Shown here one piece after another: positions 25,475 through 30,166 of a stretch of DNA of 64,000 bases. Numbering within the stretch: the first letter of the stretch is position 1; every line of letters begins with the position of its first letter. Source of the stretch: Desulfatiglans anilini DSM 4660 (lineage in GTDB: Bacteria; Desulfobacterota; DSM-4660; Desulfatiglandales; Desulfatiglandaceae); assembly GCF_000422285.1 (NCBI RefSeq), contig NZ_AULM01000002.1:62001-126000 (forward strand), read 5' to 3'. The position numbers and the translations under genes are program-made. Under the pieces are notes generated by a model that saw only the letters and a list, made by a program, of their open reading frames with translations, searched no databases and had not been told where the DNA came from.

Positions 25475-25882
25475 GAAAGGGAATCGTAAGGCGCACAAGA
25501 CCGCCGTCTGAAAAACAGCCGGCGGAAGGGTATCCCATGATCGGGGGAGAAGATTTTTCTGCGAGGTCGGATTCCCACGACCGGCGGTCGAGCATCTGGA
25601 CGTGCCGGCCCGTTTGAGCGGGTCGCCGGCGAGGAAAAACCTTGTTTTTGGCCGGGGTTCTTGGCATGTTAAACCATTTGCGTCCGCAAAGAGGTTTTTG
25701 CGCCCATCCCGGTGTCCGTTTGCATTTCTAATGGAGCGGTAGTCTGCGGACCGCCCTCCGGAAATGTTTCATTTTTCCTGTGTGGGCCCTTTTTGCCGGA
25801 TGCGAAATCTGGCCGGTGGGAGAGTCTTTCCCCCCGGCTGTCTGACACCCGATATCGGAGAAACAGGACAGAGAAGGTCCCC
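25475..25882. other. 408-bp intergenic region with a decayed repeat
   Basis: Separates the ATPase gene from the HTH-EIIA gene and should hold the latter's promoter. At about 25690-25730 the string TTTTTGCGCCCATCCCGGTG followed by TCCGTTTGCAT resembles the left half of the 61891-62032 repeat. No gene is supported. Confidence 0.4.
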
Positions 25883-26554
25883 ATGAAGCTTGACTTGAAG
25901 GAGGCGGAGTCGCTTCTCGGCATTTCCGCCATGACGATTCAGCGCTGGGCACGCCAAGGGCGGATACCCGCTAGAGAGGCTGACGGCGCCCTCGTTTTCA
26001 GACAGAAGGAACTCGAACGGTGGGCCTGGAACCGGCAGTGGCCGCTGCGCCGGGATCCGGGCATGCCCTGCTTGGAGGGCAGCCTGGAGACGGAATGTCT
26101 TTCGGACGCCCTGCGGCGGGGAGGCGTCTTTTTCAACGTCCGAGGGAATACGGTCAAGGAAGTCCTGAACGAGATGTCCGGGCTGGTTCCGCTCTCAGCC
26201 GATGTGGATCGCGAAGGGCTGGTCGGGCTGTTGGAGGAGAGAGAGCGGTTGGCGAGCACGGGCATCGGGCGAGGGGTCGCCGTTCCGCACCCGCGTGAAC
26301 CTCTGACCTCGATCGGTGACCGTGCCATTGTGACGGCGGCGTTTTTGGAGCGGCCGGTGGATTTCGGGGCGATGGACCATGTCCCGGTCTTTCTGGTGTT
26401 GCTCATGTTGAGCCCCGCAACGCGTACCCACCTCCGTCTGCTGTCCCGCTTGAGCTTCTGCCTTCGAGACGCATCGTTGACGGAGGGGCTGCCGAACTAC
26501 CGAGAAGAAGAGGCCTTTTTGAAGGATATCGCCCGGGCCGAGCAGGGATTGTGA
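25883..26554 (+). CDS. HTH domain fused to PTS EIIA (Ntr/fructose-type) domain
   Basis: A 223-residue two-domain protein. Residues 1-55 form an excisionase/MerR-like helix-turn-helix (LDLKEAESLLGISAMTIQRW, then ARQGRIPA). Residues 75-220 are a PTS EIIA type 2 domain with the phosphorylatable histidine in GIGRGVAVPHPREP (His136), the same site as PtsN. No sugar-specific EIIB/EIIC is nearby, so a regulatory role is likely. Its stop is 4 bases before the ClC start, so the pair is an operon and the channel is the obvious candidate target (inference). The ATG at 25883 follows an AGAAGG site. Confidence 0.85.
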   Translation: MKLDLKEAESLLGISAMTIQRWARQGRIPAREADGALVFRQKELERWAWNRQWPLRRDPGMPCLEGSLETECLSDALRRGGVFFNVRGNTVKEVLNEMSGLVPLSADVDREGLVGLLEERERLASTGIGRGVAVPHPREPLTSIGDRAIVTAAFLERPVDFGAMDHVPVFLVLLMLSPATRTHLRLLSRLSFCLRDASLTEGLPNYREEEAFLKDIARAEQGL

Positions 26555-26558
26555 GGTC

Positions 26559-28256
26559 ATGCACCGCCTTTTACTGCGATTGGATGAACGTCTGCAACTC
26601 GTTCTGATCTCCTGCGTGGTGGGGGTCTGCGGCGGTCTTTTGTCGGTCCTGCTGAACCGTTCCCTCCATGCATTTGCTGGGTGGGTCAAGCCCTTGAGCG
26701 GAGAGATCTATGCGGTGCTCTTCCCGGCCGCCGGGGCGATGCTTTCATGGATCTTTCTGAACTATGTGATGCGGGAAAAAGGCGGGCACGGGGTCCCCGA
26801 TGTCATCCAGAGCGTGTCCCGGAGGGGCGGGTTGCTGCCTTTCAGAACCAGCTTCTCGCGCCTGGTTTCCGCTCTTCTGACGATCGGCAGCGGGGGTTCG
26901 GCCGGTCCGGAGGGGCCGGTGGTGATCAGCGGCGGCAGCATCGGCTCCAACATCGCGACCTTTTTCGGACTCAAGGACCGGCAGCGGGTGGTCATTGTGG
27001 GCTGCGGGGCCTCGGCTGCGATCGGCGCCATCTTCAATGCCCCTGTCGCGGGCATCGCCTTCACGCTGGAGGTGATCCTGGGGGAGTGGGCTCCGGTGAA
27101 TCTCATCCCGATCGCCATGGCATCGGTGGTCGGCACCTCCGTGAGCCGGCTGCTCCAGGGCAATCAGATCCCCTTCGAGCACCAGGCCTTTCCGGTGGCG
27201 GGTTTGGATCTGGTGGCCTGCATCGGCCTGGCCTTGTTCACGACCGGAAGCTCGGTCGGCCTTATGCGGATGGTCTCGACGGTGCACACCTGGTCCACGA
27301 AGTGGGTTTCCGCCGGGTGGATGCGCGCCGGCCTTGGCGGCCTCATGGTGGGGGGCATCGGCATGTTCCTTCCGGCCGTCCTTGGCGAGGGCTATGAGGT
27401 GATCCGGGAGATTCTCAGGCAGCAGATCTCAGCCGGCGTAGGCATGGTCGCACTTCTGGTCGCCGCCAAGATCCTGGTAACGGGCCTGACCCTCGGAAGC
27501 GGCGGTTCCGGGGGGCTCTTCGCGCCGTGCCTGGTCGTCGGCTGCTTCACCGGCCTGTTTTACCAGCGTGCATTGGTATGGCTGATGCCTTCGGTCGAGT
27601 GGGCCGGTGAGAGCTACTTCGCCCTGCTCGGCATGGCCGGCGTGATCAGCAGCGTCATGCAGGCGCCGATGACCGGCATCTTTTTGATCAGCGAGATCAC
27701 GGGGGGCTACGAAGTTCTGCTTTCCGTCGTGCTGGTCTCCGTCCTGAGTGTATCTGTCAGCAGCTATATCGAACCTGTCTCCGTCTATCACCGGGACCTG
27801 GTGGCGACGGGCGAATTTATCCGGCCGGGGTCGGATCGGAAGATCCTTTCGGACCTGAATGTCGCCGAACTCCTTGAGACCGATTGCGTCCCTCTGCACC
27901 CGGAGATGCTTCTGAAGGACCTGGTGGCGCGGGTGGAACAGGGGCGCCGGAACTACTTTCCTGTAGAGGATCCAGAGAACGGGCGTTTCCTCGGAATGGT
28001 CCACCTGGACGATGTCCGAGAGTTCCTTTTCCATCCGGATCTTTACCACTCCGTGCTGGTGGAAGAGGTCATGCAGCGGGATGTTCCCACCGTGAGCCTG
28101 GACGATGACCTCGGCCATGTATTCCAGCTCTTCGATGAGGAAAGGGTCTGGAGCCTGCCGGTCGTCCACGGCGATGGGCGGTTTGCCGGGCTGATCTCCA
28201 AGGCCACTATCCTGGACCATTACCGCAGGGAACTGATGGCCCAGCAGAATGTATAA
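26559..28256 (+). CDS. ClC family chloride channel/antiporter with CBS pair
   Basis: A 565-residue ClC protein: a membrane domain to about residue 420, then two CBS domains (about 435-560) that usually bind adenine nucleotides. Selectivity motifs are recognisable: GHGVPDV near residue 77, GSGGSAGPEGP near 110-120 with the external gating glutamate (E118), and GSGGSGGLFAPCLVVG near 310. Retained E118 suggests an anion/proton exchanger or gated channel of the ordinary type. It is translationally close to the HTH-EIIA gene and convergent with a fluoride-riboswitch antiporter. Confidence 0.92.
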   Translation: MHRLLLRLDERLQLVLISCVVGVCGGLLSVLLNRSLHAFAGWVKPLSGEIYAVLFPAAGAMLSWIFLNYVMREKGGHGVPDVIQSVSRRGGLLPFRTSFSRLVSALLTIGSGGSAGPEGPVVISGGSIGSNIATFFGLKDRQRVVIVGCGASAAIGAIFNAPVAGIAFTLEVILGEWAPVNLIPIAMASVVGTSVSRLLQGNQIPFEHQAFPVAGLDLVACIGLALFTTGSSVGLMRMVSTVHTWSTKWVSAGWMRAGLGGLMVGGIGMFLPAVLGEGYEVIREILRQQISAGVGMVALLVAAKILVTGLTLGSGGSGGLFAPCLVVGCFTGLFYQRALVWLMPSVEWAGESYFALLGMAGVISSVMQAPMTGIFLISEITGGYEVLLSVVLVSVLSVSVSSYIEPVSVYHRDLVATGEFIRPGSDRKILSDLNVAELLETDCVPLHPEMLLKDLVARVEQGRRNYFPVEDPENGRFLGMVHLDDVREFLFHPDLYHSVLVEEVMQRDVPTVSLDDDLGHVFQLFDEERVWSLPVVHGDGRFAGLISKATILDHYRRELMAQQNV

Positions 28257-28451: not shown

Positions 28452-29939
28452 TCACCAGTCGTAGAGGATCTCCCACTCGTCTCCGAATGCCGGGCCCTGG
28501 GCGGTGTAGGTTTTCGTCAGGGTCTTGCCGGTCCCGGGTTTCCCGCCCGACTGCTCCTGCCAGAAACGCAGCACGATGGCCGGCAGGTCGCCGGCATTCC
28601 CTGGTCCGCCTGGCTCTTCATAGGCCGGTTCCCAGATCTCTCTTTCTTCGATAACCTTCCACACGGCGCTGGAGCCCTTGTCCCTGACCCGCTCTCCGAC
28701 CCGGGCCAATCCCTGCTTCTCCCGCAGGTCTTTGAAACGGTAACTCGACCGCGCGCCGTGGTCTAAGACACGTTCGCCCATGACCATGATCCCTATAGCC
28801 CCCAATGGGGCGGTCAGGATGATAGACAGGACCGCCACGGCAAGGATGACCTCGCCTCCCGCCACGCCGGCTGCCAGGGGAATCGCGCCGATGGCCGCCT
28901 GGACCGTGGCCTTCGGCAGATAAGCGACGACGCAGAAAGCCCGCTCTTTCCAGTTCAGGGGTGTGCCGCAAAGGGAGACATAGGTGCCGATGCTTCGAAA
29001 GAACAGGCCCGCCAGGATCACCGCCATGCCGGCCAGGCCTGCCTTCCATGCCACCTGGATGTTGACCTGGGCGCCGACGAGCACGAAGAGCAGCAGTTCG
29101 GCGAAGACCCAGAGCTTTTTGAGTTTCTGAGAGATGATGTGCGCGATCGACTCCGATTTCTCGAGGATGATGAATCCGATCGCCATGACCCCAAGAAGGC
29201 TCGCTGCAGGGACCCATCGTTCGACGGCTCCTTCGATCCAGGTCAGCAGGATGGCTGTGCCCATGACCACGAGGGTGCGCTTGGGCGGACGCCAGTCGTA
29301 GCGGCGGAAGAGCCACAGCAGAAAAAACCCCGGGATGACCCCCAGTAGGATCCCGAGGCCGATGGAAAGCGGGATCTTGGCCAGTTGGGTCCAAACGTGG
29401 ACTTCCCCTCCGCCGGCCATGCCAAGGGCGATCGTAAAGAGCACGATCACGAAGACATCGTCGATGGCGGAGGCCCCGAGGAGGAGCGTCGGAATGCCCT
29501 TACCGGTTCCGCGGCCGCGGTCCATGAAATCGATCATGAGCGGGACTACGACGGCGGGCGAGACGGCCGCCAGGATGGTTCCCAGGATGGCCGCTTCGAT
29601 GCGGGCGATGGGCAGGAGCATGGGGCCGACCCACGTGACGGCGGCGATCTCGAAAAGGGCCGGGACCATGCTCATGGTGACGGCCGCTTTGCCGACACGG
29701 TGCATGGTGTCCCGCCGCAGTTCGAAACCGGCCCGGAGCAAAATGACGATCAGGGCGATTTTGCGGAAATCCCCGGATACGTTCATCATCTCCGGGTTGA
29801 TGAGGTCGAGGACATAAGGCCCGGCGAGGACCCCCACCAGGAGCATTCCCACGAGCCCGGGGAGTTTCACTCGACGCAGGAGGTAATCCGCGCCGAGGCC
29901 GAGAAGGATGATCAGGGCGATGCTGACAGCCATTGTCAT
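28452..29939 (-). CDS. CPA-type cation/proton antiporter under fluoride riboswitch control
   Basis: A 495-residue Na+/H+ exchanger-like protein with about 12 hydrophobic segments. The ion-site region is GASAIDDVFVIVLFTIALGM near residue 175 (adjacent Asp pair), with SPAVVVPLMIDFMDRG near 145 and a PKATVQAAIG loop near 355. The last 90 residues are soluble and not recognised (WEPAYEEP, WEILYDW at the end). Two ATGs 6 bases apart (29939 and 29933) are possible; AAAGGA is best spaced for 29933. A fluoride riboswitch and terminator lie in its leader, so it is probably made when fluoride rises. Na+/H+ antiporters are known members of the fluoride riboswitch regulon. Confidence 0.9.
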   Translation of the reverse strand: MTMAVSIALIILLGLGADYLLRRVKLPGLVGMLLVGVLAGPYVLDLINPEMMNVSGDFRKIALIVILLRAGFELRRDTMHRVGKAAVTMSMVPALFEIAAVTWVGPMLLPIARIEAAILGTILAAVSPAVVVPLMIDFMDRGRGTGKGIPTLLLGASAIDDVFVIVLFTIALGMAGGGEVHVWTQLAKIPLSIGLGILLGVIPGFFLLWLFRRYDWRPPKRTLVVMGTAILLTWIEGAVERWVPAASLLGVMAIGFIILEKSESIAHIISQKLKKLWVFAELLLFVLVGAQVNIQVAWKAGLAGMAVILAGLFFRSIGTYVSLCGTPLNWKERAFCVVAYLPKATVQAAIGAIPLAAGVAGGEVILAVAVLSIILTAPLGAIGIMVMGERVLDHGARSSYRFKDLREKQGLARVGERVRDKGSSAVWKVIEEREIWEPAYEEPGGPGNAGDLPAIVLRFWQEQSGGKPGTGKTLTKTYTAQGPAFGDEWEILYDW

Positions 29940-29993
29940 TTCCTTTCCAAGGCGTTGTAGAAGCCCTTTGCCCTTTTGGAGGCAAAGGACCGA

Positions 29994-30031
29994 AAAAAGC
30001 CCCATCGGTCATGGACGCGATGGGGCTTTTT
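29994..30031 (-). terminator. Riboswitch-controlled intrinsic terminator
   Basis: On the minus strand a 14-bp perfect stem (AAAAAGCCCCATCG paired to CGATGGGGCTTTTT) with a 10-base loop is followed by a T run. It sits between the fluoride aptamer and the antiporter start, the normal place for an expression platform. Its 5' arm GCCCCATC can also pair with GATGGGGC just 3' of the aptamer (+ strand 30055-30062), giving an anti-terminator. Confidence 0.85.
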
Positions 30032-30065
30032 CAGGGTGTGATATAGATATTCCTGCCCCATCCGG

Positions 30066-30120
30066 AGCAGGAGTCATCATCCCTCGGTTCAGGGCGGTTC
30101 AGGCAGACTCCATTGCCTGT
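30066..30120 (-). promoter_or_regulatory. Fluoride riboswitch (crcB motif) aptamer
   Basis: Read on the minus strand, the segment has every part of the crcB/fluoride aptamer: P1 AGGC/GCCU (30115-30118 with 30101-30104), loop strand GGAGUC (30106-30111), joining GAACC, P2 CCCU/AGGG (30091-30094 with 30081-30084), then AUGAUG and GACUCC (30070-30075), which pairs with GGAGUC as the pseudoknot. An alternative hairpin CCUGC/GCAGG (30052-30071) overlaps the pseudoknot strand and provides the switching element. Fluoride binding should favour read-through into the antiporter gene. Confidence 0.9.
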
Positions 30121-30136
30121 CTCTGATTTCCTTGAG

Positions 30137-30166
30137 ATCGTATTTCAAGACCACCCTAGGTGTCAA
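30137..30166 (-). promoter_or_regulatory. Sigma-70-type promoter for the antiporter leader
   Basis: On the minus strand a perfect -35 TTGACA (30161-30166) is followed after 18 bases by TACGAT (30137-30142). Transcription would begin about 10 bases upstream of the fluoride aptamer, exactly as needed for the riboswitch to be in the leader RNA. Confidence 0.65.

Follow-up and report, generated by a model that had tools for sequence, protein, structure and literature searches.

The leader of a putative Na+/H+ antiporter gene in Desulfatiglans anilini DSM 4660 is very probably a transcriptional fluoride ON riboswitch built as a four-segment attenuator, a reading that draws on sequence comparison and folding models and takes its ON direction by analogy from the class as a whole. 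The leader lies on the minus strand of the 64,000-nucleotide stretch of DNA analysed here (the window), and its features are collected in Table 1. In the proposed scheme, pairing of segments 1:2 and 3:4 would lead to termination and pairing of 2:3 to antitermination, with fluoride acting by sequestering segment 1. Without fluoride, the pseudoknot would be unstable, and segment 1 (its 3' strand together with the linchpin U) would be captured by segment 2 (GGGGCAGGA) as a hairpin; segment 3 (GCCCCAUC) would be left for segment 4, and RNA polymerase would terminate upstream of the antiporter gene. With fluoride, segment 1 would stay in the locked pseudoknot, segment 2 (GAUGGGGC) would pair with segment 3 as it emerges, and the terminator would be delayed past its U-tract, leading to expression of the antiporter.

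Table 1. Features of the antiporter leader and its gene (window coordinates)
Feature	Position	Strand	Evidence
Sigma-70-type promoter TTGACA-18-TACGAT	30137..30166	-	promoter scan, 10/12 matches
Fluoride riboswitch aptamer RF01734	30061..30126	-	Rfam covariance match, 51 bits, E 3.4e-11
Pseudoknot 5' strand GGAGUC	30106..30111	-	sequence and Rfam alignment
Segment 1: pseudoknot 3' strand GACUCC (30075-30070) and next U (30069)	30069..30075	-	sequence and Rfam alignment
Anti-antiterminator hairpin (segments 1:2) UCCUGCUCC-GGAU-GGGGCAGGA, -15.6 kcal/mol, without U-tract	30051..30072	-	folding, covariation
Segment 2: antiterminator 5' arm GAUGGGGC, first repeat copy	30055..30062	-	folding, covariation, shuffles
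Segment 3: antiterminator 3' arm GCCCCAUC, core of terminator 5' arm	30019..30026	-	folding, covariation
Intrinsic terminator (segments 3:4) with U6	29993..30030	-	fold -24.3 kcal/mol
Hairpin CCUUUGCC/GGCAAAGG past terminator, without U-tract, same-genus copy identical	29965..29988	-	sequence, relatives
Controlled gene, CPA-type Na+/H+ antiporter (PF00999), putative transport	28452..29939	-	PF00999 E 2.7e-44

The promoter described in an earlier note on this DNA was recovered by the promoter scan, with both hexamers in place (30166-30161 and 30142-30137 on the minus strand, separated by an 18-nt spacer). A complete crcB-type aptamer had also been claimed, and the Rfam covariance search, specified beforehand, found it at 51 bits against a gathering cut-off of 34 bits, with the match spanning model positions 1-64 of 64. 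RF01734 was the sole Rfam family matched in the 64-kb window, and a genome scan found one such aptamer in the whole 4.67-Mb genome. The pseudoknot strands are likewise present as described, six bases at 30111-30106 facing 30075-30070 and joining the P1 loop to the 3' strand. The next base, U30069, corresponds by position to U48 of the Bacillus cereus switch, whose A40-U48 'linchpin' pair is the one locked by fluoride (PMC8752731). Promoter, aptamer and antiporter gene together are, judged from the sequence, a genuine fluoride riboswitch leader that would be expected to bind fluoride.

Downstream of the aptamer, three helices compete. The hairpin that the earlier note had placed on the pseudoknot strand exists and does use that strand, but its stem is 9 bp long (30072-30064 paired with 30059-30051) and takes three pseudoknot bases and U30069 rather than two bases. 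Its 3' arm overlaps GAUGGGGC (30062-30055), which can also pair with the terminator 5' arm at 30026-30019. This repeat occurs twice, as had been noticed, once 3' of the aptamer and once in the terminator 3' arm. The terminator is present too, although it folds as 13 + 3 bp from 30030 and not as 14 bp. Helices 1:2, 2:3 and 3:4 form a mutually exclusive and conserved set. An ordinary switch in which aptamer and terminator compete directly, the additional helices being incidental, is the established mechanism in B. cereus and Thermotoga petrophila (PMC11077080, PMC13273304) and is also found in Desulfacinum orthologues of this leader, yet it is disfavoured by the anatomy of the window. Here the pseudoknot 3' strand is not the base of the terminator, whose 5' arm begins at 30030, 39 nt beyond that strand, with no base in common; the hairpin on the pseudoknot strand is followed by AUAUCUAU instead of a U-tract; and direct competition would leave the conservation of helix 2:3 unexplained. 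We regard direct overlap as very unlikely in this leader.

Control of translation, by hiding of the ribosome-binding site, can be considered for leaders of this phylum, because those without a recognisable terminator (15 + 11 of 70) indicate that other output modes exist. In the window, however, the antiporter gene is preceded by a strong terminator, and about 48 nt separate the U-tract from the AAGGAA site (29945-29940), which is outside every competing helix, so that a translational switch is extremely improbable. A longer open reading frame beginning at 30005 was rejected as the start of the gene: it would begin inside the terminator stem, and the ATG at 29939, following AAGGAA, is therefore preferred.

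The helices of the window are, by the statistics of its sequence, more than chance. When the spacer was shuffled 20,000 times with its dinucleotides preserved, helix 1:2 was matched in 0.17% of cases, helix 2:3 in 2.3% and both in 0.01%, and folding of the whole leader gives z = -5.2. In a same-genus relative, a single site differs in the 181 nt preceding the start codon, and it falls in a linker, whereas the coding sequence differs by 4.4%; the promoter hexamers are identical, with three differing sites in the spacer between them. Covariation was assessed in an alignment of 25 leaders with 500 shuffles. Helix 1:2 was paired in 94.9% of cells, with a covariation score exceeding all shuffles (0/500), and helix 2:3 in 92.0%, with 8 double-change cells against 2.3 in shuffles (again 0/500); the leaders are related and the paired columns were picked from the proposed structure, so these counts overstate independence and are not to be read as probabilities. 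The terminator helix 3:4 was paired in 93.3% of cells and showed weak covariation. When partners were shifted by 1-3 columns, pairing fell to 35-61%. In one antiterminator column pair, a segment-2 A faces a segment-3 U in 5/5 leaders, while a segment-2 G faces U in 0/20; in the window, one triple has changed in all three letters together, from A-U-A to G-C-G.

Growing transcripts were also folded, either free or with the pseudoknot strands blocked, using nearest-neighbour energies that ignore tertiary contacts and RNA polymerase. In the free transcript, hairpin 1:2 appears at 30051 and persists, and the terminator 5' arm remains free; with the pseudoknot strands blocked, the pairing of GAUGGGGC with GCCCCAUC becomes the best structure once 30021-30018 is out. 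The three-state switch put forward in the earlier note is therefore supported by the conservation of 1:2, 2:3 and 3:4 across diverged leaders and by a constrained fold path that gives the predicted order. Equilibrium folding alone did not reproduce the switch in the window leader: at full length, with the pseudoknot blocked, the terminator is still preferred over the antiterminator. Since the terminator wins at equilibrium even with the pseudoknot locked, control of the modelled switch must be kinetic. Refolding of the antiterminator into the terminator has a computed barrier of about 18 kcal/mol before the terminator 3' arm starts emerging, 14 kcal/mol with 30004 exposed, and 4.5 kcal/mol only with 30000 exposed. 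In qualitative terms, given that several bases lie inside the polymerase, the drop to 4.5 kcal/mol would come with most of the U-tract already transcribed. The terminator minus antiterminator energy in the window (-4.4 kcal/mol) lies inside the range covered by the other leaders of three-state type, whose median is -1.75.

Antiporter orthologues were found across Desulfobacterota, and among the 76 antiporter loci whose upstream sequence exceeds 200 nt, 26 have an RF01734 aptamer immediately before the gene; further leaders were taken from family-, order- and phylum-level aptamer scans. The three-state relay was present in 33 of the 47 related leaders having a downstream terminator, against 2.5 expected from shuffled spacers under fixed rules, and in 13/23 leaders of a phylum-wide sample against 2.0 expected. 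Most leaders use the same relay with different letters; in leader L018, for example, ACUUCUACC pairs with GGGGUAGAAGU, then GGGGUAGAAGU with UCUACCCC, and then CCCACC with GGGUGGG-U6. Helix 1:2 extends into the pseudoknot and occupies the linchpin position in all 36 of 36 leaders. Cross-swap tests were significant and modest in effect, each segment's own partner beating about two thirds of foreign partners, because much sequence is common to the leaders.

These counts bear on the reading that takes the hairpin for a decayed direct terminator, the downstream terminator for a constitutive attenuator and the GATGGGGC repeat for fortuitous, with fluoride control weak or lost. Such decay would fit the geometry of the hairpin, which is that of the Desulfacinum terminator minus its U-tract, and a terminator whose advantage over the antiterminator on the shared segment is about 4 kcal/mol or more. 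It is nonetheless very unlikely, given that repeat and complement have been kept across diverged leaders far more often than shuffling predicts and that conservation is higher in the leader than in the coding sequence. In the antiporter tree, leaders of the direct form fall in one clade and those of the three-state form are scattered, implying about 9-10 changes; the placement of the window's own leader is not firm, and the label L069 reads 'hairpin + terminator' under the strict rule. Two leaders (L049 and L078) are intermediate between the direct and three-state designs, and in L049 the hairpin on the pseudoknot strand has a short run of U, with an antiterminator and another terminator after it.

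Many three-state leaders have a second, strongly conserved terminator (approximately GCCCTGCgAGG...CCTgGCAGGGC-U6) before the gene, downstream of the first (L002, L003, L004, L007, L018, L050, L089, L109 and L110). It would not be opened by the proposed antiterminator, and at this site the window has only the hairpin without a U-tract listed last among the RNA elements in Table 1. Other arrangements were also observed in the phylum. Dynamin-family GTPases (Dynamin_N) are recurrent fluoride riboswitch targets, as the first gene after the aptamer in L016, where the domain was tested, and in L036, L089 and L110, which are similar by eye. Two fluoride aptamers lie back to back on opposite strands at L109/L115 (G076:C178:5447-5732), one upstream of enolase and its partner upstream of a divergent gene; at L034, three occur within 5.3 kb; and one genome (G342) holds 11.

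The nearest solved structure to the antiporter protein is the NHA2/SLC9B2 Na+/H+ exchanger (PDB 7b4l; E 1.6e-41), from which the window protein differs in being bacterial and in having an ion and a direction of transport that are putative. The motif AIDDVF, read from the sequence, contains a DD pair that is a candidate for the ion-binding DD motif of CPA2. The earlier note was correct that antiporters are known members of the regulon: Na+/H+ antiporters are the next commonest class after exporters, and their control by fluoride riboswitches has been explained by the acidification caused by entering HF (PMC11139923). Neither this genome nor the same-genus one yielded Fluc (PF02537), and there was no fluoride-type CLC here, all three CLC proteins being nearer to chloride than to fluoride CLCs; as the genome is 98.7% complete, these absences are not certain. 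By this evidence, the genome has no riboswitch-controlled fluoride gene besides that of the antiporter. Convergent with the antiporter gene, at 25877-28256 on the plus strand, lie adjacent genes for an HTH_17 and PTS EIIA protein and for a chloride-type CLC channel with CBS domains, which have no fluoride riboswitch of their own.

We lean, by a little, towards a broader proposal, namely that Desulfobacterota have, among their fluoride riboswitches, a distinct platform class whose aptamer controls an intermediate hairpin, which for its part controls an antiterminator; that orthologous leaders have repeatedly gained or lost this class, beside the direct design; and that, in a host without Fluc or a fluoride-type CLC, the NHA2-like antiporter would be the principal fluoride-stress gene under riboswitch control. 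Studies of co-transcriptional RNA folding have in the fluoride riboswitch a leading model, and the mechanism published for it is direct competition between pseudoknot and terminator. Orthologous leaders offer matched pairs, direct in Desulfacinum and three-state in its relatives, from which one could ask what the intermediate hairpin contributes, be it sensitivity, dynamic range or more time for the decision. A covariation model that seeks only an overlap of aptamer and terminator would miss the relay design.

Aptamer and antiporter target are both known, and the relay platform, which departs from the published direct-overlap mechanism, appears to be new. Terminators overlapping the motif were already noted in the 2010 discovery paper (PMC2864571), and PMC13273304 recovers the direct mechanism as a covariation model among 1,901 sequences; the literature searched, whose coverage was incomplete, yielded no description of an antiterminator relay in fluoride riboswitches. 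The B. cereus and T. petrophila type shares with the window the aptamer, the pseudoknot, the linchpin position and the expected ON logic, as well as a downstream hairpin that can capture the pseudoknot 3' strand. The difference is that the captured strand is there the base of the terminator (PMC11077080; PMC13273304), whereas in the window it would enter a separate hairpin without a U-tract that gates an antiterminator. A further comparison is with the orthologous Desulfacinum leader L025, which is probably the Desulfacinum hydrothermale riboswitch D. hy1 (FWXF01000014.1) listed in PMC13273304 among those assayed by in vitro transcription. Like the window, it combines an antiporter orthologue (73% identity) with a hairpin on the pseudoknot strand (ACUUCUACCCC/GGGGUAGAAGU); unlike the window, the Desulfacinum orthologues have a U-tract directly after this same hairpin, which makes it the terminator, and no second platform. 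In trp-type attenuators, 1:2 and 3:4 pairing terminates, 2:3 pairing antiterminates, and a stalled ribosome withholds segment 1. The window leader would follow the same logic, with the difference that its segment 1 would be withheld by a ligand-locked pseudoknot and no leader peptide would be needed.
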